Source: an uncultured Rhodospirillaceae bacterium (GTDB lineage Bacteria > Pseudomonadota > Alphaproteobacteria > Rhodospirillales > Magnetospirillaceae). Taken from it: 40,461 nt of DNA. Positions within the stretch are counted from its first letter, which is position 1; every line of letters starts with the position of its first letter. The notes beneath the pieces were generated by a model, which saw only the letters and a list, made by a program, of their open reading frames with translations, was not told where the DNA came from and did not search any database. Position numbers and translations under genes: made by a program. The stretch lies in NCBI GenBank assembly GCA_903899885.1, contig CAIULK010000182.1:1-40461 (forward strand), read 5' to 3'. Below, piece by piece: positions 3,387-34,520 of the stretch.

Positions 3387-3561
3387 GGCCTTGGCCTCCT
3401 TCGGGGAACCGGCTTGAAGTGTAGTTCGCCCGGCCCGCCGCCGGCTTGATGTTGGTCAACCGAAAGGGGAATGAGTCCGCGCCATCCAGCGGATTGTTGA
3501 CGCGTGCCGCCACCCCAAGGCATCCTTGAAATCGCCATAATTTCGAGCGGTTTTCGTCAAC

Positions 3562-4618
3562 GTGACACAGTCGGCGCACGGTTCCCCGCACCCCCACGTC
3601 ACCCGTCAAACACACCGCCGCCGGACGCTGCGGCGGACCGTCTACCACATGCTGGGCGGCGACGGGCACGACGATTTGCGCGTCAAGCTGATCGACGGGT
3701 TCCTGATTTTGTTGATCTTGGTCAATGTCGCGGCGGTGATGGCCGAATCGATGGAGAATTTGTCGATCGCCCACGGCCCGACCTTTCACGATTTCGACGT
3801 GATCTCGGTGGCGGTGTTCAGCGTGGAATATGCCCTGCGGCTGTGGACGGCGGTCGAGCTGCCCGACGCCCGCTATCACCACCCGGTGTGGGGCCGTTTG
3901 CGCTGGGCGGCGTCGCCGCTGGCGCTCATCGACCTGTTGGCGGTGTTGCCGTTCTATCTGGGCATGGTGGTCGAGATCGACCTGCGGGCGATCCGGGTGC
4001 TGCGGGTGCTGCGCGTGTTCAAGCTGTCGCGCTATTCGATGGCGATGAATGTGATGGTCGCGGTCGCCCGCCAGGAGGCGCGCGTCATCAGCGCCGCCTT
4101 GGTGGTGATGGGCGTGGTTTTGGTGCTGGTCAGCAGCCTGATGTATTTGTTCGAGCATCATGTGCAGCCGCATGTGTTCAGCGACATTCCCTCGTCGATG
4201 TGGTGGGCGGTGGTGACCCTGACCACGCTGGGTTACGGCGACATGGTGCCGGTCACCCCGGCCGGGCGAATTCTGGGGGGGGCTGACCGCCATTCTGGGC
4301 GTCGGCATGATCGCGCTGCCCGCCGGTGTGTTCGCCTCGGGTTTTTCCGAACAGATGCGCATCCGGCGCGAGGAATACCGCGAAGCGGTGGAAAAGGCGA
4401 TGGACGACGGCGGCCGCCTGACCGCCCGCGAACGCCGGGCGCTCGAAGACACCCGCCACCGCCTGGGCCTGTCCGAGGACGAGGCGATTTACGTTCTGGA
4501 GGAAGCGATGCGCGAAAGCCGGGCCTGCCCCCATTGCGGCCTGCCGATCGTCCACCCGGTCCACGAACGCCGCCGCCGCGCGGCAACGCCGCCGGTCGAT
4601 CCGCTGGCGGAATCGTAA
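3562..4618 (+). pseudogene. Voltage-gated potassium channel, frameshifted in a G run
   Basis: The N-terminal frame holds six membrane segments. S4 carries the regularly spaced arginines of a voltage sensor (RAIRVLRVLRVFKLSR), and the pore has the K+ filter motif TLTTLGYGDMVP. Just after the pore, at 4275-4282, a run of eight G shifts the frame. With seven G the protein would continue GRILGGLTAILGVGMIALPAGVFASGF (S6 gate) into the ORF ending at 4618. That tail holds a helical cytoplasmic segment and a CPHC motif. GTG at 3562 is the longest start, and ATG at 3649 (MLGGDGHDD) is a plausible alternative. As read, the inner gate helix is destroyed. A sequencing error is a serious alternative. Confidence 0.8.
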
Positions 4619-4681
4619 ACGGCTTCCGTCGTTCCTACCGGGTTGCTTTCCGGCCCTAGGCGGACTATTTCTTGAATCACC

Positions 4682-14745: not shown

Positions 14746-15366
14746 ATGAGCGAAGCCTGCTGCTCCGGAGCGCTGGTCGGACAGACCGCGCCCGATTTCA
14801 CCGCCCAGGCGGTGATGCCCAATAACGAGATCAATCCCACCTTCAATCTGAAGACCTATCTGGCCGATTCCTATGGGCTGGTGTTCTTCTATCCGCTCGA
14901 TTTCACCTTCGTCTGCCCGTCGGAAATCCTGGCGCACCATCACCGCTTGGCCGCGTTCGCGGAACGGAAATGCAAGCTGGTGGCCGTCAGCGTCGATTCG
15001 CAGTTCTGCCATTTGGCCTGGAAGAACACCCCGGTCGATAAGGGCGGTCTGGGCAATGTCCAGTTTCCGATGGTCGCCGATCTGAACAAGACGATCGCCA
15101 AGGATTACGGCGTTCTGCTGCCGGGCGGCGTCGCGCTGCGCGGTTCGTTCCTGATCGACCGCTCCGGCCTGGTGCAGGCCGCCCATGTCAACAACCTGCC
15201 CTTGGGCCGCAATGTCGATGAGATGCTGCGCCTGGTCGATGCGTTGCAGTTCCACGAGCAACACGGCGAAGTCTGCCCCGCCGGTTGGCAGAAGGGCAAG
15301 GCCGGCATGAAGGCCAGCCCGGCGGGCGTGGCCGATTATCTGGCCAAGCACGCCACCGAACTGTGA
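14746..15366 (+). CDS. Typical 2-Cys peroxiredoxin (AhpC/Prx1 type)
   Basis: The enzyme reduces hydrogen peroxide and organic peroxides. The 206-residue protein has the peroxidatic Cys in FTFVCPSEI (about residue 60), the catalytic Arg region, and the resolving Cys in GEVCPAGWQ near the C-terminus, defining the typical 2-Cys class. A cluster of Cys at the very N-terminus (SEACCSGA) is unusual and not part of catalysis. It is monocistronic, with a strong terminator right behind. trxB follows, and thioredoxin is the usual electron donor for such enzymes, so the pairing makes functional sense. Confidence 0.95.
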   Translation: MSEACCSGALVGQTAPDFTAQAVMPNNEINPTFNLKTYLADSYGLVFFYPLDFTFVCPSEILAHHHRLAAFAERKCKLVAVSVDSQFCHLAWKNTPVDKGGLGNVQFPMVADLNKTIAKDYGVLLPGGVALRGSFLIDRSGLVQAAHVNNLPLGRNVDEMLRLVDALQFHEQHGEVCPAGWQKGKAGMKASPAGVADYLAKHATEL

Positions 15367-16383
<1,017 letters not shown>

Positions 16384-16452: not shown

Positions 16453-17346
16453 ATGGATTGGGATAAGCTGCGCGTGTTCCACGCGGTGGCGGAGGCTGGC
16501 AGCTTCACTCATGCGGGTGAGGCGCTGAACCTCAGTCAGTCCGCCGTTAGCCGTCAGATTGGGGCGTTGGAGGAATCACTTCATCTTCCGTTGTTCCACC
16601 GTCATGCCCGCGGCTTGATTCTGACCGAGCAGGGCGAGCTTTTGTACAAAACCGCCCGCGAGATATTCGCCAAATTGGCGATGACCGAGGCGATGCTGAC
16701 CGAAAGCCGTGAACAGGCCCAAGGCCCGTTGAAGGTCACCAGCACGGTCGCCTTCGGCTCGCTGTGGCTGACCCCGAAGATCAAGGATTTTCTGGAACTG
16801 TATCCCGACATTCAGTTGTCGATGGTGCTGCTGGACGGCGAGCTGGATCTGGCGATGCGCGAGGCCGATGTCGCGATCCGCATGACCCCGCCCAAACAGC
16901 CCGACCTGATTCAGCGGCATCTGTTCACGATGCACTACAACATCTACGCCTCGCCCGATTACTTGAAGCAATACGGCACGCCGAAAACCCCCCAGGATCT
17001 GGATCATCACCGGATCATCATTTACGGCGAGGATCAGCATATCGTGCTGCCCGCCGCCAATTTGAACTGGCTGGTCGAGGCTGGGGCCGACCCGGCCCAT
17101 CCGCGCCGCCCGGTGCTGGAGGTTAATAACCTGCACGGCATCTACCGGGCGGTGAAATCCGGTCTCGGCATCGCGGCGCTGCCCGACTATATGAGCGTGG
17201 ACGCCGGAAGCCTCGTGCATGTGCTGCCCGAATTGAAGGGCCCCGCCCTGGATACCTATTTCGTGTATCCCGAGGAATTGCGCCATTCGAAACGCATCGC
17301 GGTCTTCCGCGATTTCTTGCTGCGCAAAATACAGGAAACACTGTAG
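16453..17346 (+). CDS. LysR-family transcriptional regulator
   Basis: The 297-residue protein begins MDWDKLRVFHAVAEAGSFTH. The LysR winged helix-turn-helix (LNLSQSAVSRQIGALEESLH) covers residues 1-60, and a periplasmic-binding-like effector domain covers about 90-290 (LDLAMREADVAIRMT, VKSGLGIAALPDY). It is encoded 69 bp after trxB in the same direction, so it could be read through from trxB. The effector and targets cannot be told from sequence. This WDKLR-start subgroup is common in Rhodospirillales. Confidence 0.93.
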   Translation: MDWDKLRVFHAVAEAGSFTHAGEALNLSQSAVSRQIGALEESLHLPLFHRHARGLILTEQGELLYKTAREIFAKLAMTEAMLTESREQAQGPLKVTSTVAFGSLWLTPKIKDFLELYPDIQLSMVLLDGELDLAMREADVAIRMTPPKQPDLIQRHLFTMHYNIYASPDYLKQYGTPKTPQDLDHHRIIIYGEDQHIVLPAANLNWLVEAGADPAHPRRPVLEVNNLHGIYRAVKSGLGIAALPDYMSVDAGSLVHVLPELKGPALDTYFVYPEELRHSKRIAVFRDFLLRKIQETL

Positions 17347-17386
17347 GCGGGCGTTTTAGCCATGCGCCAAATGCATGCCACCGCCG

Positions 17387-17416
17387 TTGTTTTTCCGCGT
17401 GGTGGATGAATACAAA
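17387..17416 (+). promoter_or_regulatory. Candidate promoter for the 17.4-kb structured RNA
   Basis: TTGTTT (17387-17392) and TACAAA (17411-17416) are 18 bases apart, in a short AT-rich patch unlike the GC-rich surroundings. Transcription would start near 17423, just ahead of the series of hairpins. Pattern-based only. Confidence 0.4.
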
Positions 17417-17422
17417 ATATCG

Positions 17423-17568
17423 TATATAAGGAGAATGTCGTCTGCTGGATTCTGGTAGACGTCATTGTTCGGGCCGTTGCCCGGGCAGGGCCTTTGGCCC
17501 TTACGTCTCCCAGACGTAACCTCCCTGTTTACCTAGAGCCCTCGGTTTGCCGGGGGCTTTCTTTTTTT
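17423..17568 (+). ncRNA. Probable small RNA: a chain of five hairpins with CU-rich loops and a terminator
   Basis: Between the LysR gene and the convergent lipoprotein gene, about 145 bases fold into consecutive stems. They are CGTCT/AGACG (17439-17461), CGGGC/GCCCG (17470-17483), GGGCC/GGCCC (17488-17500), a perfect 8-bp TTACGTCT/AGACGTAA stem with a CCC loop (17501-17519), and a terminator. The single-stranded AACCTCCCTG after the fourth stem and the UCUCCCA loop could pair with Shine-Dalgarno sequences, as in CCUCCC-motif sRNAs of other Alphaproteobacteria. I do not match it to a known family (not 6S, 4.5S or tmRNA). An AAGGAGAATG at 17428 could alternatively start a 7-codon peptide, but the spacing is too short for normal initiation. 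Confidence 0.5.
17537..17568 (+). terminator. Rho-independent terminator of the structured RNA
   Basis: AGCCCTCGG (17537-17545) pairs with CCGGGGGCT (17550-17558, one G-U pair) around TTTG, followed by TTTCTTTTTTT. The T run ends exactly at the stop codon of the convergent lipoprotein gene. Confidence 0.9.
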
Positions 17569-17993
17569 CACTGCATCCCGTTGCCGCCGGACATCCCCGC
17601 GAACGGCTCGGTCAGATGGAGATCGCGTTCCGAGACCAAGCAGGCCTGAACGCCCGGCACGGTCCGTCCGCCCAGCGGCGCCGCGACCGTGTTGACCATG
17701 CAGGTCTGCGAGCAGGCTTCGGCGCACATCAACACTTCATTGTCCCACTGCTCCGACGCCGCCAATTGGATATACCCTCGCATCGCGGCGATTTCCTTTT
17801 CGGAATAAAGGCCGCCCAACGCCTTGGGATATTCGGCGATCATTCGGGCGGGAGTGATGTCGGAGCATTCGCAGCGCGCGACAAGGCCCATGAAGCGGGC
17901 CATGCGGGCAAAGTACGCGGGTTGATCCGGCGGCGTCTGGCTGCATCCGGCCAAAGCCAAAGCAAGCGCAAGGCACAGAGAAACGCGTTTCAT
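17568..17993 (-). CDS. Cys-rich lipoprotein of unknown function
   Basis: The start at 17993 gives MKRVSLCLALALALAGCSQ, a classic lipoprotein signal with lipobox ALAGC, and it is preceded by GGAGG seven bases upstream. A longer in-frame ATG at 18020 has no such site. The 141-residue protein has six or more Cys after the lipid Cys (RCECSD, MCAEACSQTCM, VQACLV), which suggests disulfides or metal binding in the periplasm. No family recognised. Downstream it meets the terminator of the structured RNA. Confidence 0.75.
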   Translation of the reverse strand: MKRVSLCLALALALAGCSQTPPDQPAYFARMARFMGLVARCECSDITPARMIAEYPKALGGLYSEKEIAAMRGYIQLAASEQWDNEVLMCAEACSQTCMVNTVAAPLGGRTVPGVQACLVSERDLHLTEPFAGMSGGNGMQ

Positions 17994-18053
17994 GGGACAC
18001 CTCCGGAAACGGTATTCCACTCGGACATTGTAGCACGAATCGCGCCGCCCGGC

Positions 18054-20382
18054 TTACGGTTTCCCCCCCTCCCGGACCAGTTTGACGGCTCCCGCCAGTT
18101 GTTTCAGCGAGAACGGTTTGGGCAGGAAATGAATACCCTCGTCCGGGTCGATGCCGTTGCGGGCGACATCCTCGGAATAGCCAGAAATCAGGATCACCTT
18201 GATACCGGGCCGCTCGGTGCGGACCAAGCGGGCCAGGGTGACCCCGTCCATGCCGGGCATCACCACGTCGGTGATCAGCACGTCGATCGCCTCGTCGCCG
18301 CGCAGCAGGTCCAGCGCCTGCTCGCCCGAACGGGCCTCGATCACGGTGTAACCCTTGTTCTTCAAGGCGCGCGAGCCGAACAGGCGCACCGCGTCCTCGT
18401 CCTCGACCAGCAAGATGGTGCCGTTTCCGGTGAGGTCGCCCTCAGCGGCCTCGGCGCTCAGGGCTGGGCGAACCTCGGCGGGGGCGGTTTCCTCGATGCG
18501 CGGCAGATAGATCGAGAAGGTGGTGCCGTGCCCGACCTCGCTGTCGACGAAGACGAAGCCGTCGGTTTGGCGCACGATGCCGTACACCGTCGATAGCCCC
18601 AGGCCGGTGCCGGCGCCAACTTCCTTGGTCGAAAAAAACGGCTCGAAAATGCGGCCCAAGGTTTCCCGCGCGATGCCGGTGCCGGTGTCGGCCACCTCGA
18701 TCAACACGTAATCGCCCGGCGGCATCAGTTCGGGGCCGCGTTGGACCGGCTCGGCGACCGCGACCGCGCTGGTCCGCAAGGTCAGCACGCCGCCGCCCGG
18801 CATGGCGTCGCGGGCGTTGACCGCCAGATTGATGATGACTTGATCGAATTGGCCGGGATCGACCCGCACCACCCCCCAACTGGCGGCCGTGCACCATGCG
18901 CAGCTCGATGGTCTCGCCCATCAGGCGGCGTAGCAAATGCGACAGTTCGGCCAAGGCGTCGGTAACGTTGAGCAGGCGGGGCTGCAAGGCTTGGCGGCGC
19001 GAAAAGGCCAGCAATTGGCGCACCAGGCTGGCCGCCCGGTTGGCGTTCTGGCGCACTTGGATGATGTCGGCGAAACTGGGATCACCGGGGCCGTGGCGTT
19101 GCAGCAACAGATCGCAAAAGCCGATCATCGCGGTCAGCAGATTGTTGAAATCATGGGCGACGCCGCCGGCCAACTGGCCCATCGCCTGCATTTTCTGCGA
19201 CTGGGCGAATTGCGCCTCGAGATTGCGGTGTTCCGTGGCATCGATGAAGTGAACGATCAGCCCGGAAATCTCGCCGTCCTCGAAGGTCGGGCTGACGAAC
19301 AGCTGGGCGATCAAGTCGCGCCGTCCCTTCAGCGTGACTTCCATGTGGGTTCCCGGCAATGATCCGGCCAGCACGCGGCCCAAACGTTCGGCCGCCAAGG
19401 CGCGGTGATCCTCGGCGATGAAGTCGGCGATCAAACGCCCCGCCATCGCCTCGCGCCCGGTGCCCATCGTCGCTTGCAGGGCGAGGTTGCAGTTGGCGAC
19501 CCGTCCGTCGGGATCGACCAGCGCGATGCCGATCGGCGCATCGTCGAACAGCCAGTGGAAGCGTTGTTCCGCCGCCCGCAAGGCGCGTTCCCACTTCTGC
19601 TCGGGCATCACATCGCGCATGACCACCGAGCGGGTGAAGATCTCGCCGCCCTCGTCGAACACGGTGTGCGCCACCAGGGCTTGGAAGATCTCGCCGCCAC
19701 GCCCCTTTAGGCGCAGTTCGGCGCGTTCGCGTTCGGGATTGGGGGCGTCGCCGCCCAAAACCTCGTCGAGCGGGCGCCCGATCAAATCGGCGGGTGTGCG
19801 GCCCAGCCATTCGGCCAAACGCTGATTGATGCGGCGGATGATGCCCGCCGCGTCGGCGCTGTAGCAGCCGACGGGAAGAAAATCGACGAAATCGGCCAGC
19901 GAGTCGGCTTCGCGCCGGGTGGTTTCCTCGATGGCGCGCCGCGCGGTGACGTCCTCGGCTATCCACAAGACGGCATCGTCGAGCGGCCGGGTTTCCACGG
20001 CGAACCATTCGCGTCCGCCGCCGGGAACGGCGAAGGTCACCTCGGTCCGCCGGGCGCCGCCGATCAGCGCCGCCGCCTCCAGCCGGGCGATTTCCTCGCA
20101 CGCCCGCTCGTCGGTTCCCGCCCGCGCCGCCAGCACCGCCAGCGGCCGCGCGGGCGGACCGAAATGGTCGCGTGCCGCCCGGTTGCGGGCGGTTTCGGCG
20201 CCGTCCCGCCCGACGATCAGCACCGCCCGGACGTCGCCGTCGAGCGCGCCGGTCAAGCGGCGGATTTTAAGCATGGACGCGCGGGCGCGCCGCCGGGCGC
20301 CGATCAGCAAGGGGATCGCGGTCAGGGGGGCGGCCACGGCGAGAATCCACGGCAACGGCGCTATGGCGAGATCAAAGTCCAA
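18054..20382 (-). pseudogene. cckA: CckA hybrid sensor histidine kinase, one-base frameshift in a G run
   Basis: CckA phosphorylates (through ChpT) the master regulator CtrA. The N-terminal frame has one membrane segment, PAS domains at about residues 150-400, and the CckA-diagnostic HisKA block LAGGVAHDFNNLLTAMIGF with SLVRQLLAFSRRQALQPR and LSHLLRRLMGETIEL. At 18872-18877 a run of six C (G on the coding strand) shifts the frame. With five, the text continues RQLGVVRVDPGQFDQVIINL into the ATPase domain (DTGTGIARETLGRIFEPFF, GTGLGLSTVYGIV) and a receiver domain with the phosphorylated Asp in VLITDVVMPGMDG. The start is TTG at 20382 with AAAGGCG upstream, overlapping flhB by 11 bases. A sequencing error is quite possible. 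Confidence 0.85.
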
Positions 20383-21442
20383 GTTCGCCTTTCAGTCGCA
20401 TGACGTATCCGATCACCTCGGCCACCGCCTTGTAATGTTCGGGCGGGATCTCCTCGTCCAGCTCGACCGTGGCGTAGAGGGCACGGGCCAGCGGCGGGTT
20501 CTCGACGATGGGGACCTCGTTTTCGGAAGCCAGATCGCGGATGCGCTTGGCCACCAGTTCGGTGCCCTTGGCCACCAGGACCGGCGCGCCCATGGTGTCC
20601 ATGTCGTATTTCAGGGCCACCGCATAGTGGGTCGGGTTGGTCACCACGACGTCGGCGCCGGGCACCGCCTGCATCATCCGCTGGCGCGCCCGCTTCATCC
20701 GCAAAGAGCGGATGCGGCCCTTGACCATCGGGTCGCCTTCCTGCTGCTTGTTTTCGTCGCGGACTTCCTGCTTGCTCATCTTCATCTTCTCCATGAACCG
20801 GAAGCGTTGGAGAATAAAGTCCGAGACCATCAGGAGCGTGGAAAACAGCACCACCGCCAGCATCAGCGCGAAGATGCGGTCGCGCAGGTAAGCCAAGATC
20901 CCCAGCAGATCCAGTTCCGCCAAGCTTTGGTACTCGCGGATGCGCGGGCGGATCAGCAGGACCATCGTCGTGCCGATCACGCCGATCTTGGCCAATTGCT
21001 TGACCAGTTCGATCAATTGCTGCGGCGAAAACAGCCGCTTGATCCCGGCCAGCGGGCTGATCCGCGCGAAATCGGGCGCCAGCTTGCTGGGGATCCACAT
21101 GAACCCCTTCGTCTGGATCACCATCGCCGTCACCGTGATCACGATCACCACCGCGAAGGGCCAGGCCAGAACCTTGGCGACCGCCAGCGCCAGACCGGCC
21201 AGCAGCGCGGCCAGCGATTCCGGGGTCAGTTCGGTCGATCCCAGACTGCCCAACAGCGGGGCCAGCGTATTGGCGACCCCGGTGGCCATCCGGCCCGACA
21301 GCGTCGTGACGATGATGAACGCGGCCACCAGCGAGGCCCACATTCGGACCTCGGCCGATTGCGGGACATCACCATGTTCCCGCGCTTCGCCCAGTTTTCG
21401 GGAGGTTGCGTCTTCTGTCTTGTCGTCGCTCTCGTCGGCCAT
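20372..21442 (-). CDS. flhB: Flagellar export apparatus switch protein FlhB
   Basis: FlhB is an inner-membrane part of the flagellar type III export gate and switches substrate specificity from rod/hook to filament. The 356-residue protein begins with the charged ESDDKTEDATSRKLGEAREHG motif, has four membrane segments (about residues 30-240), and carries the self-cleaving NPTH site in VVTNPTHYAVALKYD. It is encoded 6 bp after fliR, and its end overlaps cckA. Confidence 0.97.
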   Translation of the reverse strand: MADESDDKTEDATSRKLGEAREHGDVPQSAEVRMWASLVAAFIIVTTLSGRMATGVANTLAPLLGSLGSTELTPESLAALLAGLALAVAKVLAWPFAVVIVITVTAMVIQTKGFMWIPSKLAPDFARISPLAGIKRLFSPQQLIELVKQLAKIGVIGTTMVLLIRPRIREYQSLAELDLLGILAYLRDRIFALMLAVVLFSTLLMVSDFILQRFRFMEKMKMSKQEVRDENKQQEGDPMVKGRIRSLRMKRARQRMMQAVPGADVVVTNPTHYAVALKYDMDTMGAPVLVAKGTELVAKRIRDLASENEVPIVENPPLARALYATVELDEEIPPEHYKAVAEVIGYVMRLKGELGL

Positions 21443-21448
21443 CGCGGT

Positions 21449-22225
21449 CTATTTCGGCGCGAGCGGCGGCGTCAGGTACGGCGCCAAGCCGTCCTCGAAC
21501 GCGTGCAAGAACAACAGCATGATCAGCGGCAGGGCCACCATCAACATCCACAGCCCGCCCAGCACCTGCATCGGCTGGGCAACGAAGAACACCTGCATTT
21601 GCGGCACCAAGCGCGACAAAAGCCCCAGCCCAGCGTAAAAAACCAGCCCGAACACCAGCAGCGGCGCCGCCATCCGCACGCCCAGCGTGAAGCTGTCCGA
21701 CGTCATGTGGGCCAGCGTTTCCGAAAAATCGCCGAACGGCATGGGCTGGCCGGGGCGGAACAGGTCGTAGGAATCGACGATCGCGTGGATCATCACATGG
21801 TGCATGTCGGTGGCGAAAAGCGCTACCAGCGCCAGATTGGACAAGAAGCCCGACAGCAGCGTGCTTTGCTGCTGCGCCACCGCATCGAAGGAAAAGGCGT
21901 TGGTCAAGCCTGTCTGAAAGCCGATGAAGGTACCCGCCACCTGCAACGAACTAACCAGAACCTGGGTCATGACGCCGAGATAGACCCCCACCGTCACCTC
22001 GCCCGCGATCAACAGGAACAAGGTGGATGGATGCGAGGGCAGCGGCGGGATCGTCGATCTTAGGACCGGCAGCAGCAGGAAGGCGACGGCGACGGCCAGC
22101 AATAATCGCACGCGGGCCTGCACCACCGAACTGCCGAAGCCCGGCATGATCATCATCGCCGCCCCGACGCGCGAGAATATCAAGAACAGGCGATAGATGT
22201 CGGTGGTCAGGATTTCGTTGAGCAT
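21449..22225 (-). CDS. fliR: Flagellar biosynthetic protein FliR
   Basis: The 258-residue integral membrane protein of the export gate has about six hydrophobic segments. It shows the family pattern FSRVGAAMMIMPGFG near the start, TQVLVSSLQVAGTFIGFQTG in the middle, and the C-terminal RLVPQMQVFFVAQPMQVLGG. FliP, FliQ and FliR form the 5:4:1 export pore, and all three are in this window, fliP in the divergent operon. Confidence 0.95.
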   Translation of the reverse strand: MLNEILTTDIYRLFLIFSRVGAAMMIMPGFGSSVVQARVRLLLAVAVAFLLLPVLRSTIPPLPSHPSTLFLLIAGEVTVGVYLGVMTQVLVSSLQVAGTFIGFQTGLTNAFSFDAVAQQQSTLLSGFLSNLALVALFATDMHHVMIHAIVDSYDLFRPGQPMPFGDFSETLAHMTSDSFTLGVRMAAPLLVFGLVFYAGLGLLSRLVPQMQVFFVAQPMQVLGGLWMLMVALPLIMLLFLHAFEDGLAPYLTPPLAPK

Positions 22226-22234
22226 GACGCGGGG

Positions 22235-22501
22235 CTATCCGCCCGAGATCATGCGGTCCATCACCGACCGCCAGAAATCCCCCAGGGTGTGCAGCATGTA
22301 AGGCAGCAGGATAATCAACGAGGTGAAGACCACCAGCACCTTGGGAACGAAGGTCAGGGTCATTTCCTGCAACTGGGTGACCGCCTGAAGAATCGAAATG
22401 GCCACGCCAATGGCCAGACCAGCCAACAAAACCGGCCCGGCGACCTTGATCATCGTCCAGATTCCCTCGCGGGCGACGTCCATCAGGTCGGCTTCGGTCA
22501 T
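22235..22501 (-). CDS. fliQ: Flagellar biosynthetic protein FliQ
   Basis: The 88-residue export-pore subunit has two membrane helices (GPVLLAGLAIGVAISILQAV and VFTSLIILLPYMLHTLGDFW) joined by the conserved QEMTLTFVPK loop. The start at MTEADLMDVAREG (22501) gives the usual length. The ORF is open 19 codons further upstream, but that part overlaps fliE. Confidence 0.95.
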   Translation of the reverse strand: MTEADLMDVAREGIWTMIKVAGPVLLAGLAIGVAISILQAVTQLQEMTLTFVPKVLVVFTSLIILLPYMLHTLGDFWRSVMDRMISGG

Positions 22502-22502
22502 C

Positions 22503-22835
22503 TTAGATCGGCATGCGCAGAATTTCGTTGTAGGCGTTGACCACCTTGTCGCGGACATTGACCACGGTTTCCAAGGTCAATTCGGCGTTGGTGACGGCGG
22601 CGACCACATCGCGGATATCGGCCTTGCCGGCGATCCCGGCGGCCGAGGCGACTTCGCCGGTTTTCAAGGTGGTGACGGCCGATTGTGCGGCACCCTTCAG
22701 CACGCTGGCGAAATCGGCGCCGGGCGCGGCGGTGTCTTGGTCGCGCGCGTCCAAACCGTCGGCGCCTCCACCGGCGGTGGCGCGGGCCAGTGCCGAATAG
22801 GCGTTGACCGCGTTGGTGATGGCCGAATTGCTCAT
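22503..22835 (-). CDS. fliE: Flagellar hook-basal body adapter FliE
   Basis: FliE joins the MS ring and the rod. The 110-residue protein shows FASVLKGAAQSAVTTLKTGE in the middle and the characteristic C-terminus IRDVVAAVTNAELTLETVVN with RDKVVNAYNEILRMPI. Its stop lies one base before the fliQ start. Confidence 0.95.
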   Translation of the reverse strand: MSNSAITNAVNAYSALARATAGGGADGLDARDQDTAAPGADFASVLKGAAQSAVTTLKTGEVASAAGIAGKADIRDVVAAVTNAELTLETVVNVRDKVVNAYNEILRMPI

Positions 22836-22858
22836 GGTCCGAAATCCATCCGAAAAGG

Positions 22859-23269
22859 TCAGCGCAGCATCTGCACGGTTTCGGTCAACAGGCTGCGCGA
22901 CGTGTTGACGACGTTAAGATTGGCCTCGTAGCTGCGCTGGGCTTGGCGCATATCCATCAATTCGATCATCGGGTTGACGTTGGGGGCCAGCACATAGCCG
23001 TCACGGTCCGCCGCCGGATGCTTGGGGTCGTAACGACGCTGGAATTCGCTGCGGTCGTTCTCGACCTTGCCGACCTTGACCGTGGTCATGCCGTTGGCGC
23101 GGTCGAGTTCGTTCTTGAAGGTCACCACCTTGCGGCGATAAGGGGCTCCATCCGGGGTTTGCGCCAGCGAATCGGCGTTGGCCAGATTCTGCGAGATGAC
23201 GCGCATGCGTTCGGACTGGGCCTTCATGCCCGCGATCGCCACCGCCGTGCTTTTTTGCAAATCATCCAT
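22859..23269 (-). CDS. flgC: Flagellar proximal rod protein FlgC
   Basis: The 136-residue rod protein has the N-terminal heptad-like segment SERMRVISQNLANADS shared by rod/hook proteins. It also contains YVLAPNVNPMIELMDMRQAQ and the C-terminal coiled-coil segment RSYEANLNVVNTSRSLL. It is 14 bp after flgB and is exported by the type III apparatus encoded around it. Confidence 0.95.
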   Translation of the reverse strand: MDDLQKSTAVAIAGMKAQSERMRVISQNLANADSLAQTPDGAPYRRKVVTFKNELDRANGMTTVKVGKVENDRSEFQRRYDPKHPAADRDGYVLAPNVNPMIELMDMRQAQRSYEANLNVVNTSRSLLTETVQMLR

Positions 23270-23283
23270 CGAACGGTTCCAGA

Positions 23284-23682
23284 TCAGTGCTCGGTGGTCA
23301 CCAGTTTCAGCATCGCCACCTGTTTCGAGAACAGGGTCGATGCGGTGTCATAGGCTCCCTTCGCCTCGCCCAATTTGGCCATCTGCTCTTCCATCACCAC
23401 GGCGTTGCCATCGGGCGAGGACTCGTAGACCTTCTTGGTGGTGAGAACGGTGTTGGGATCTTGCAGTTTCGGCACGATGTGGCGCGGATCGGTGGCGACC
23501 GGCAGCACCGCCGGTTGGCCCGCGTCGCGCAGTGCCGTTTTGAAATCGAGTTCCTTAAGGTCCTTCGGCGTATAACCCGGGGTGTCCGTGTTCGAGATGT
23601 TCTCGGACAACACCTCTTGGCGCTGGGCGACCCAGTTCATCTTCGCGGTGGCCATCGCCAGAACAGTGAGTTTGTCGAACAT
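23284..23682 (-). CDS. flgB: Flagellar proximal rod protein FlgB
   Basis: The 132-residue protein has the rod signature RQEVLSENISNTDTPGYTPK and a C-terminal helix SKQVAMLKLVTTE. I take the ATG at 23682 (MFDKLTVLAMATAK) because it gives the family length; the frame stays open upstream with non-family residues, and the upstream site is weak. It is the first gene of the minus-strand flagellar operon. Confidence 0.9.
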   Translation of the reverse strand: MFDKLTVLAMATAKMNWVAQRQEVLSENISNTDTPGYTPKDLKELDFKTALRDAGQPAVLPVATDPRHIVPKLQDPNTVLTTKKVYESSPDGNAVVMEEQMAKLGEAKGAYDTASTLFSKQVAMLKLVTTEH

Positions 23683-23771
23683 CAGGGGCCGTCCCCAAAG
23701 GTTTTCCCAACCAGCGGCCATCATGACTCCGTTCCGCTTAAGATTCCATGAATCGGCGGTTGTGGCGCCGT

Positions 23772-23786
23772 TTAAGGCGTTGTTAA
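23772..23786. promoter_or_regulatory. CtrA-type binding box (TTAA-N7-TTAA)
   Basis: TTAA at 23772-23775 and TTAA at 23783-23786 are separated by GGCGTTG, an exact match to the full CtrA site TTAA-N7-TTAA. It lies in the 151-bp region between the divergent starts of flgB (23682) and the FlhB-like gene (23834), 90 and 48 bp away. Such motifs are rare in this GC-rich DNA. Confidence 0.65.
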
Positions 23787-23833
23787 GCGGGCCCGCGCCA
23801 CAGTGATTGGTGTCTTTGGGAAATGGGGCACTG

Positions 23834-24190
23834 ATGGCGATCCGGCGCGATATTTGGAACGAACGGGCCGAAACGGAGAAGGAAACCTCCGATCGCGAGG
23901 CCGGGCGCACGCCGATCGCGGTGGCCTTGGCCTATGACCCGGCGCAAGCCGACGCGCCCAAGGTGGTGGCCACCGGCAAGGGGTTCATGGCCGAACAAAT
24001 CTTGGAATTCGCCTTCGCGCACGGCGTCAAGGTTCGCACCGACGCCGATTTGGCGCAGATCCTGGCCGCCGTCGAGATCGACACGGTGATCCCGGTCGAG
24101 GCCTTTTTGGCGGTGGCGGAAATCCTGGCTTACGTCTACCGCGCCAACGGCCAAATGCCGCCCGAGGCCCCGGCCGGAGCCAGCGCATGA
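23834..24190 (+). CDS. FlhB C-terminal-domain-like protein (FhlB type)
   Basis: The 118-residue soluble protein resembles only the cytoplasmic C-terminal half of FlhB. Its segments TPIAVALAYDPAQADAPKVVATG, FAFAHGVKVRTDADLAQILAA, VEIDTVIPVEAFLAVAEILAYVYRA parallel FlhB in order, but the cleavage NPTH motif is replaced by AYDPAQ. Stand-alone homologues (FhlB/YlqH) can partly substitute for the FlhB cytoplasmic domain in other bacteria. The start at ATG 23834 is chosen; a TTG at 23807 is possible. It opens the plus-strand operon leading to fliOP. Confidence 0.8.
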   Translation: MAIRRDIWNERAETEKETSDREAGRTPIAVALAYDPAQADAPKVVATGKGFMAEQILEFAFAHGVKVRTDADLAQILAAVEIDTVIPVEAFLAVAEILAYVYRANGQMPPEAPAGASA

Positions 24191-24486
24191 ACACGTCGGC
24201 GAACGCGGCGAACGCCACGCGCGAGGAATTGGAAAAGGCCACGTCGCTGGTCGGCACCGCGCGCCGTTTGCTGGCCAAGGGCACGATGGTCGATCTGTCG
24301 GCGCTGGAAGGCAAAATCCGCCTAGTCTGCACCGAAATTCAGGCGATGGACAAAAGCCAGGGCCGTCCGTTGATGCCCGCGATGGAAAGCTTGATCGCCG
24401 ATCTCGACCGGCTGGCCGAGGCGATCTTGGAGCGGTCGAAGCCGCTGGCCGATCGCCTTGGTCCCGATGACACGGGTTTGGGGTGA
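24187..24486 (+). CDS. Small helical protein in flagellar operon, unknown
   Basis: The 99-residue soluble protein is predicted almost entirely helical (EELEKATSLVGTARRLLAKG, MESLIADLDRLAEAILERSK), the style of a small flagellar chaperone such as FlgN, but I see no specific motif. It overlaps the FlhB-like gene by four bases (ATGA) and fliO by one, so translation is coupled and a flagellar role is likely by position. Confidence 0.7.
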   Translation: MNTSANAANATREELEKATSLVGTARRLLAKGTMVDLSALEGKIRLVCTEIQAMDKSQGRPLMPAMESLIADLDRLAEAILERSKPLADRLGPDDTGLG

Positions 24487-24763
24487 TGGACGCGATCGTC
24501 TATCTGCGGTCGGTGGCGGCGCTGGCGCTGGTGATCGGCTTGATCCTGGGCGGGTTGTGGCTGGTCCGCCGTTTCGGCTTGGGCGCCATGACCGGCTTGG
24601 CGGGCGGCGGGCGGCGGTTGAAGGTGATAGAATCGCTGCCGGTGGACGGACGCCACCGTCTGGTCCTTGTGCGCCGCGACGGACACGAGCATCTTCTGCT
24701 GATCGGCGCCAGCTCGGCCCTGGTGGTCGAGAGCGCCATTTTATCGACGGAGATTCCCCCCCC

Positions 24764-24767
<4 letters not shown>
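24486..24767 (+). CDS. fliO: Flagellar biosynthetic protein FliO
   Basis: The 93-residue protein has one N-terminal membrane helix (ALALVIGLILGGLWLVRRFG) and a small cytoplasmic domain with RLKVIESLPVDGRHRLVLVR and HEHLLLIGASSALVVES, as in FliO/FliZ. FliO helps FliP assemble into a ring. It is coupled at both ends by ATG/stop overlaps. Confidence 0.9.
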
Positions 24768-25501
<734 letters not shown>

Positions 25502-33799: not shown

Positions 33800-34195
33800 C
33801 TATCGTCCGAGGCTGCGCTCGAACTCCGCTTTCGCCATCTCGATTTCCCTCACCCAGTCGGCAATCTCTTCGACCGATGGCGACGGCGGAACCCCGAACA
33901 AATCATCGACCGGATAGCGATAGGCAGTGGCATAGGGGGTGAACCGGGCCAACGGCAGCAACAGGGCGGCAAGCGGGTATTTCGGCAGCAGGCCGACGAG
34001 AACACGGATGTCATGCGAATACGGCGCGTTGACGCCCTCGCTTACCAGGATGGCCTTTACCAGCTTTTCGGCGGCCTGCTGGCAATGGTAGGCGGCGGCT
34101 TCCTCGGTGGGCTCCGGCCCGAACAGACAGTTGCGCGCCGCCTTCAGGTCGCGCTCAACCACCGCCAGCCAGGGAAGAACCTCGTCAATGTCCAT
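33800..34195 (-). CDS. HEPN-domain protein (partner of MNT)
   Basis: The 131-residue helical protein has the HEPN pattern WLAVVERDLKAARNCL, AAYHCQQAAEKLVKAILV and YSHDIRVLVGLL. It overlaps the nucleotidyltransferase gene by 11 bases. HEPN/MNT pairs behave as toxin-antitoxin systems, with HEPN the RNase and MNT the adenylyltransferase that silences it. Here the R-x4-6-H RNase motif is not visible, so this HEPN may be non-catalytic or belong to the substrate-binding subtype. The start at 34195 (MDIDEVLPWL) is chosen over the longer frame inside MNT. Confidence 0.85.
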   Translation of the reverse strand: MDIDEVLPWLAVVERDLKAARNCLFGPEPTEEAAAYHCQQAAEKLVKAILVSEGVNAPYSHDIRVLVGLLPKYPLAALLLPLARFTPYATAYRYPVDDLFGVPPSPSVEEIADWVREIEMAKAEFERSLGR

Positions 34196-34520
34196 GCACG
34201 AGGTGTCCTTCGGACCATACCGTCCGGCTGAGCGTGCCCGGTACCAGCTTCTTGCGCTCGAATACCGACCGGCGGCAGGCAATCACCTCCACCGCCACGT
34301 CGAAGCCGCTGGTCGCTTCGAATGCCGCCAGCAGGCTCATCTTCTCGCGCGGGGTGTCGTCCGGCATCACGACGAGAAGGTCGTAGTCGCTGTCGGGACG
34401 GTTGGTGCCCCGCGCGCGCGAACCGAACAGATAGACCGCCTCCGGCCGCATCGAAGGAACGATGCGCTCCAGCAGCTTTCCCAGGTTGGGATCATCCCGC
34501 ACATTTACCGAACCGGCCAT
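34185..34520 (-). CDS. MNT-type minimal nucleotidyltransferase
   Basis: The 111-residue protein has the pol-beta-fold active site YLFGSRARGTNRPDSDYDLL (GS...G then SDYD), with a later FDVAVEVIA supplying the third acidic residue. It probably adenylylates its HEPN partner. First gene of the two-gene unit. Confidence 0.9.
   Translation of the reverse strand: MAGSVNVRDDPNLGKLLERIVPSMRPEAVYLFGSRARGTNRPDSDYDLLVVMPDDTPREKMSLLAAFEATSGFDVAVEVIACRRSVFERKKLVPGTLSRTVWSEGHLVHGH

Follow-up and report, generated by a model that had tools for sequence, protein, structure and literature searches.

Two probable CtrA sites, rather than one, lie between the back-to-back flagellar operons of the window (the whole 40,461-nt stretch of DNA analysed here, from an uncultured Rhodospirillaceae bacterium), and one of these sites fronts a leftward operon, flgB-flgC-fliE-fliQ-fliR-flhB-cckA, such that CtrA probably drives the gene of its own kinase, CckA, through a flagellar operon. 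In this reading, which rests on comparison of sequences and which as a whole, including the feeding of the cckA operon by CtrA, we give a probability of roughly 0.75, the gap between the operons would consist of a pair of sigma-70 promoters pointing away from each other, with CtrA activating each from a separate site at the -35 position. Phosphorylated CtrA bound at the first site (box 1) would recruit RNA polymerase rightward into flhX-fliO-fliP, and bound at the second (box 2) would recruit it leftward into flgB-flgC-fliE-fliQ-fliR-flhB-cckA. We infer that the leftward transcript would extend into cckA and that cckA would be translationally coupled to flhB via the overlapping start, such that phosphorylated CtrA would raise the level of CckA as a side effect of export-apparatus synthesis. 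Because CckA is both kinase and phosphatase, the sign of such a loop would depend on the mode in which CckA works.

The gap itself measures 151 bp and runs from flgB (minus strand, ATG at 23682) to flhX (plus strand, ATG at 23834). As the original prediction had stated, it contains an exact TTAA-N7-TTAA at 23772-23786 (box 1, plus strand, TTAAGGCGTTGTTAA), which a motif scan of the whole window found to be the only exact copy, and this predicted CtrA-type site is followed by a predicted -10 element (CACAGT, 23799-23804, with A at 23800 and T at 23804, a spacing that recurs on the flhX side only) and a predicted transcription start near 23811. A second box that had gone unreported, TTCATGGAATCTTAA at 23738-23752 on the minus strand (box 2), departs from the motif by one mismatch and is followed in the direction of flgB by a predicted -10 element (CATGAT, 23720-23725, with A at 23724 and T at 23720) and a predicted transcription start near 23713, both starts being positioned from distances given in passages of PMC6180460. 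By sequence, then, the two sites resemble CtrA promoters, box 1 being exact, box 2 carrying one mismatch, and the predicted -10 elements standing at the published distance with the A/T pair 14 nt past the box in both cases. The bare TTAA-N7-TTAA motif is weak evidence: the window has three sites at ≤1 mismatch, and when it was shuffled 100 times, three or more turned up in 21 of the shuffled sequences. It is position and conservation, not the motif alone, that give the exact box its significance; two box-plus-minus-10 sites in such a gap arose in 1 of 2000 dinucleotide shuffles.

Protein models identified the genes on either side of the gap. On the minus strand, flgB (proximal rod protein, 23284-23682) scored below the cut-offs of the NCBIfam FlgB models and above that of Pfam Flg_bb_rod, and flgC (22859-23269), fliE (22503-22835), fliQ (22235-22501), fliR (21449-22225), and flhB (20372-21442) scored above the cut-offs of TIGR01395, TIGR00205, TIGR01402, TIGR01400, and TIGR00328, respectively, with the fliQ match beginning at residue 20 of ORF 22235-22558 and its ATG placed at 22501. 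These are followed by cckA in two parts, a 5' part with PAS and HisKA domains (18873-20382) and a 3' part with HATPase and receiver domains (18054-18872). All genes from flgB to cckA share one strand with gaps of ≤23 bp in the window, and flhB overlaps the cckA frame (TTG at 20382) by 11 bases, exactly as predicted; the companion claim that the operon ends in cckA stands for the conserved core, since a small lipoprotein-like ORF (17568-17990, minus strand), which had no match at E 0.05 in the 80 related loci (best 80 of 561), follows directly after cckA. On the plus strand, the divergent operon begins with flhX (23834-24190), an FlhB C-terminal-domain-like gene scoring above the cut-off of PF01312 and below that of TIGR00789, and continues with a small gene that adjoins flhX in relatives and has no family match (24187-24486), fliO (24483-24767; TIGR03500, 51.1 bits against a cut-off of 55.25), and fliP (24764-25501; TIGR01103 above cut-off, ATG 24764 inside ORF 24458-25501).

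To describe conservation, we used a named set that comprised the window and the loci fetched with the FlgC alignment (best 80 of 561), from which L151 was dropped for upstream counts as its contig begins within flgB, leaving 80 loci (the window and 79 relatives) with a search region of 250 bp before flgB. A box 2-type TTYA-N7-TTAA was present in that region in 69/80 loci and absent in 11 (dinucleotide-shuffle mean 0.86), and a site within one mismatch of TTAA-N7-TTAA occurred in 77/80, compared with 1 to 9 for five controls with rearranged half-sites (best 80 of 561). When the spacer was varied among these best 80 of 561, exact matches favored a gap of 7 (34/80 loci, against 1 to 4 for each gap of 4, 5, 6, 8, 9, or 10), and matches at ≤1 mismatch were found in 77/80 at gap 7, 54 at gap 6, 26 at gap 8, and 8 to 15 at the others. 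The gap-6 and gap-8 matches probably overlap with the same A/T-rich sites. Because the alignment carries little information in columns other than those of the box and -10 region, this conservation is not mere recent ancestry.

Gene order behaved in the same way, such that the check on box and gene order in relatives that the original prediction had proposed came out in its favor for the boxes, the order, and the flhB-cckA junction alike. Among the best 80 of 561, flhB lay downstream on the same strand in 73/80 named relatives and was followed by cckA in 60; among the other 13, L186 and L188 lacked cckA despite more than 5 kb of contig and 11 contigs end ≤1630 bp after flhB. This places cckA after flhB in 60/62 named loci with a downstream flhB and enough contig (best 80 of 561, chosen for flgC), which qualifies the figure in passages of PMC8116508 that cckA was identified in only 27-36% of surveyed Rhodospirillales genomes. 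The genes are also tightly packed: the flhB-cckA gap was ≤69 bp in 60/60 named loci, and gaps of ≤100 bp were found at the six successive junctions from flgB to cckA in 81/81, 78/79, 72/77, 75/77, 71/74, and 60/60 cases (best 80 of 561). The window's own arrangement, a TTG or GTG cckA start 10 bases before the end of flhB, recurred in 21/60 (best 80 of 561). In seven named relatives flhB was not found downstream of flgC (best 80 of 561); in four the contig stops within 1.8 kb, and L132 and L177 continue for 8 kb and L135 for 2.5 kb, so the gene order is not universal. These three flgB-flgC loci (L132, L135, and L177) lack downstream flhB and cckA, with L132 and L135 also lacking the flgB box, and may be second flagellar systems.

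Beyond the order, we drew a class-wide sample of 114 genomes (≥90% completeness, almost all from different families), in which, at the thresholds used, cckA was found in 58/114, flhB in 71/114, and both in 50. Within those 50, cckA lay ≤6 kb downstream of flhB on the same strand in 40, a count that includes the window's own genome and one family member, and did not in 10. The region was fetched for the other 38 of the 40, with flgB readable in 33 and not in 5. The order flgB, flgC, fliE, fliQ, fliR, flhB, cckA recurs in these 33 loci, 29 of them with fliP divergent upstream, and gaps of ≤100 bp were seen at flgC-fliE in 21/33 and at flhB-cckA in 30/38. Upstream of flgB, a box with ≤1 mismatch was present in 29/33 class-wide loci and no such site in the remaining 4/33 (controls 2 to 9; shuffles mean 3.1, maximum 8), and a box plus -10 pair was present in 20/33 (shuffles mean 0.065, maximum 2). 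The named and class-wide sets are not fully independent, since L166 and L214, at the least, seem to come from a single genome. A predicted CtrA-type promoter joined to a flagella-cckA operon is found in many families of Alphaproteobacteria. A published example of the junction is Phenylobacterium zucineum, where passages of PMC2529317 give flhB and cckA the consecutive tags PHZ_c0932 and PHZ_c0933.

The chief rival to CtrA feeding cckA through the operon accepts that CtrA drives the flagellar genes and holds that cckA is transcribed mainly from its own CtrA-independent promoter, in flhB or in the small gap, without meaningful feedback. Such promoters have precedents, as internal operon promoters are reported in Caulobacter (passages of PMC4287350) and in Brevundimonas the named targets of GcrA and CcrM include cckA (passages of PMC7987155), and the flhB-cckA gap exceeds 100 bp in 8/38 class-wide loci. 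Further in its favor, in Ruegeria KLH11, where a full CtrA site precedes cckA by 62 bp, extra ctrA left cckA expression unchanged, according to passages of PMC3692519, which is the closest published test of a CtrA-cckA link and a negative one. Against it stands the junction itself, in which the cckA start overlaps flhB as in the window in 17/21 of the loci L109-L129, the other four being L115, L117, and L125, whose contigs end early, and L128, whose start lies 34 bases before the flhB end. Mild evidence comes also from GANTC, which is not in excess in the 200 bp before cckA relative to the flhB body (per 200 bp, 0.56 vs 0.46 in 61 named loci including the window, best 80 of 561, and 0.37 vs 0.43 in 38 class-wide loci), and from third-base variability of flhB, which showed no drop at the 3' end in 29 loci. 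Two further scans carry little weight either way: a CtrA-type promoter in the 300 bp before cckA was found in 0/60 named (best 80 of 561) and 0/38 class-wide loci, with controls also at 0 and hence little power, and consensus sigma-70 promoters in 17300-24300 numbered none where shuffles average 1.0, which leaves that scan powerless. We regard a dominant separate promoter as unlikely, if the most serious of the alternatives.

A second rival accepts the arrangement and questions the window's copy of cckA, which as assembled is split over two frames, with PAS and HisKA in ORF 18442-20382 and HATPase and REC in ORF 18054-18872. Among NCBIfam models, both pieces score best with CckA (NF046020; residues 93-502 of ORF 18442-20382 and, in the other frame, profile positions 584-865); they stay below its cut-off of 1000 bits, and so does an intact relative at 666.6 bits. 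The reading frame breaks where the coding strand has six consecutive Gs (18872-18877); the same-family locus L119, with nearly the same bases there, has five. If this frameshift were real, the lineage would have lost CckA or would be switching it, and the loop would be dead here; the six Gs against five in L119, the two ORFs in place of one, and the open frame at that place in all 60 relatives read (best 80 of 561), which carry one longer open cckA frame, often of ~800 aa, are compatible with that. Homopolymers are typical error sites, however, and the draft has 269 contigs, which makes an assembly or sequencing error likely, and past the shift, identity to relatives reaches 85%, as would be expected of a gene selected until recently. 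A lost or switching CckA therefore seems improbable, and the extra G is probably a sequence or assembly error, or else a fresh mutation. Because the assembled cckA is interrupted, our statement on feedback refers to the conserved arrangement rather than to a proven working copy in this genome.

With two boxes in one gap, the next matter is which box serves which operon, and here the part of the original prediction that had box 1 serving the cckA operon was not borne out by comparison among loci. Among the best 80 of 561, the 58 loci with flhX near and divergent held the exact box in 32 cases and the TTYA box in 52 upstream of flgB, and in the 9 loci with flhX elsewhere the exact box was at flgB in 0/9 and the TTYA box in 7/9. 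Ahead of flhX, five of those 9 loci (best 80 of 561) carried an exact box, three carried a box with one mismatch, and L128 carried none; where the position of flhX was unknown (13/80, best 80 of 561), the TTYA box was found in 10 and the exact box in 2.

The polarity of the -10 signal points the same way. In R. sphaeroides, transcription starts 23-24 nt past the CtrA site and the A at -11 is invariant (passages of PMC6180460), from which an A some 13-14 nt past the box, and the sigma-70 T four bases on, would be predicted; the A and its distance were taken from that report, and the A-T pair pattern was fixed after the first alignment had been seen. Past box 2 toward flgB, the A(-11)/T(-7) pair occurred at 13 nt in 46/69 loci and at 14 nt in 29/69, some loci having both, and in the opposite direction in ≤5 loci at any offset from 8 to 21 (best 80 of 561). 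Past box 1 toward flhX, it occurred in 21/36 and 20/36 loci at 13 and 14 nt, respectively, and the other way in ≤3 (best 80 of 561). On the strength of the loci with flhX elsewhere and of this polarity, box 1 probably belongs to flhX-fliO-fliP and box 2 probably to the flgB...cckA operon, and we infer CtrA binding and activation at each. The assignment of one independent site to each promoter comes from comparison of loci, not mutation.

That 23772-23786 alone activates both divergent operons has some appeal, since a single site serves fliL2-fliF2 in R. sphaeroides (passages of PMC6180460) and box 1 lies inside the gap with identical halves readable on both strands. It is nonetheless very unlikely: the second box is nearer flgB and more widely conserved, of the nine loci with flhX not adjacent, seven keep box 2 and none has the exact box at flgB (best 80 of 561), and the -10 signal is absent on the flgB side of box 1. 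Control of both operons by a single box is thus disfavored because the cckA operon has its own box and box 1 fits flhX. The original prediction that CtrA regulates both operons is sustained to the extent that predicted CtrA-type promoters face both ways, and its interpretation was partly supported, being right in outline and wrong on which box serves cckA.

Binding of the two boxes by another OmpR-family regulator is similarly remote, for although the genome holds 18 Trans_reg_C matches and the left half TTYA deviates from the Caulobacter consensus, the half-sites, 7-nt spacing, and -10 spacing are those of published CtrA promoters and the signal is absent with other half-site letters. CtrA is itself encoded in the genome (L194:665-1366; NF045991, 404.5 bits against a cut-off of 350), its best solved-structure match being the CtrA chain 4qpj over residues 1-118, as is a ChpT-type phosphotransferase (HPTransfase), so relay partners for CckA exist there. 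Roughly 80 bp upstream of ctrA, at about 1440-1455 of L194 (contig C25 of the same genome), we noted GTTAACCAT, a match to TTAACCAT, which passages of PMC6180460 and PMC3692519 name as a variant CtrA site. This site suggests that ctrA may be autoregulated.

Among the known systems that can be set beside the two predicted promoters and the cckA operon, Caulobacter has flhB directly before CC1078, in a fliQ-fliR-flhB operon that is not known to include flgB-flgC-fliE. CC1078 is the Caulobacter cckA (passages of PMC2529317), and the fliQ promoter of this class II operon is CtrA-activated (passages of PMC6180460), a likeness to the operon described here. Another is the fla2 system of R. sphaeroides, where experiments showed a divergent flagellar region to hold two CtrA sites that are independent of each other (passages of PMC6180460). 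The flgB2p-fliI2p region there likewise has one CtrA site per divergent promoter and a short gap before flgB, and fla2 promoters likewise have A at -11 and the site at the -35 position. The two systems differ in that the divergent partner is fliI there and flhX-fliO-fliP here, that cckA is absent from the fla2 gene list in the Fig. 1 legend, and that an extra gap was needed to align the sites there whereas N7 fits here (passages of PMC6180460).

Feedback of CtrA on its kinase has been predicted before, in that CtrA would control its own kinase gene in the Rhodobacterales 'cluster B' (passages of PMC2877005); the predicted site there lies in the promoter of cckA itself, unlike the distant operon promoter here. 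According to the same passages, Magnetospirillum and Rhodospirillum show no clear feedback of CtrA at the transcriptional level, a finding that the operon arrangement qualifies. An operon-level loop, if true, would have been overlooked because the survey scanned the genes' own promoter regions. The nearest account that we found in print describes ctrA, cckA, and chpT as co-localized with flagellar operons in Rhodospirillum rubrum and urges attention to it (passages of PMC12363192), so the neighborhood of phosphorelay genes and flagellar operons is already known in print. That account concerns one genome, and its passages at hand carry no promoter, operon structure, or class-wide survey. Of the results described here, it is the class-wide linkage that holds the more interest. 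In the literature covered, we found no description of a CtrA-driven flagellar operon ending in cckA, and a 2012 Magnetospirillum CtrA study outside that coverage may hold one.

These observations touch on the route by which a phosphorelay for motility turned into a controller of the cell cycle. Should the kinase gene, in many families, still be part of a CtrA-driven flagellar operon, the supply of CckA would be tied to flagellar expression. More tentatively, and at somewhat less than even odds, cckA may have originated as the final gene of a flagellar export operon activated by CtrA, with the loop from CtrA to the flgB promoter to cckA and back to CtrA ancestral to the Alphaproteobacteria. Were this so, lineages with an essential cell-cycle CtrA would have had to release cckA from flagellar control.

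Genome-wide, the motif behaved differently from its behavior in this gap. Exact TTAA-N7-TTAA occurs 11 times in the 3.44-Mb genome against 14 for a reversed control, so it is not enriched, and we rejected genome-wide enrichment as support. Scanning eight of the ten other exact sites revealed ten neighbor proteins with no flagellar family match, and the remaining two sites lie upstream of an extensin-like gene and a DUF488 gene; as the neighbors of these sites lack flagellar families, the exact motif alone is no marker of a flagellar regulon. One of the ten neighbor proteins is a chemotaxis receptor; its gene, preceded by an exact site on contig C4 of the genome (L009, 528-542), may be another target of CtrA. 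The box-plus-minus-10 pattern with a 13-nt spacer has 4 sites in the genome, two of which are box 1 and box 2, and in single-contig relatives the same gap holds 2/5 sites (G018) and 2/6 (G027). Totals in the window's genome (G000), G018, and G027 were 4, 5, and 6 against 2, 10, and 4 for the reversed control with the 13-nt spacer, and 2, 4, and 0 against 8, 9, and 4 with the 12-nt spacer, and genome-wide there is no consistent excess over the control. The two other 13-nt-spacer sites of the window's genome precede the extensin-like gene and the DUF488 gene, which have no known flagellar link, and in G027 two of the four remaining sites precede flagellin and flaF (L256 and L258), no more than about 3 kb apart.

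The window holds further features away from the flagellar genes. At 3504-4659 on the plus strand, the coding signal changes frame near 4286 without a gap, which may reflect overlapping genes or another frameshift; considered as a gauge of assembly quality, this switch had no Pfam family on either part. At 14746-16383 on the plus strand, a peroxiredoxin (AhpC/TSA) gene is followed by a pyridine-nucleotide-disulphide oxidoreductase gene, and the idea that this stretch is one broken gene was rejected in favor of two genes. Near this pair lies a LysR-type regulator gene (16453-17346). Finally, at 33800-34520 on the minus strand, a HEPN-domain protein (PF05168) is encoded beside a nucleotidyltransferase-domain protein (PF01909), a pair that looks like a HEPN/MNT toxin-antitoxin.
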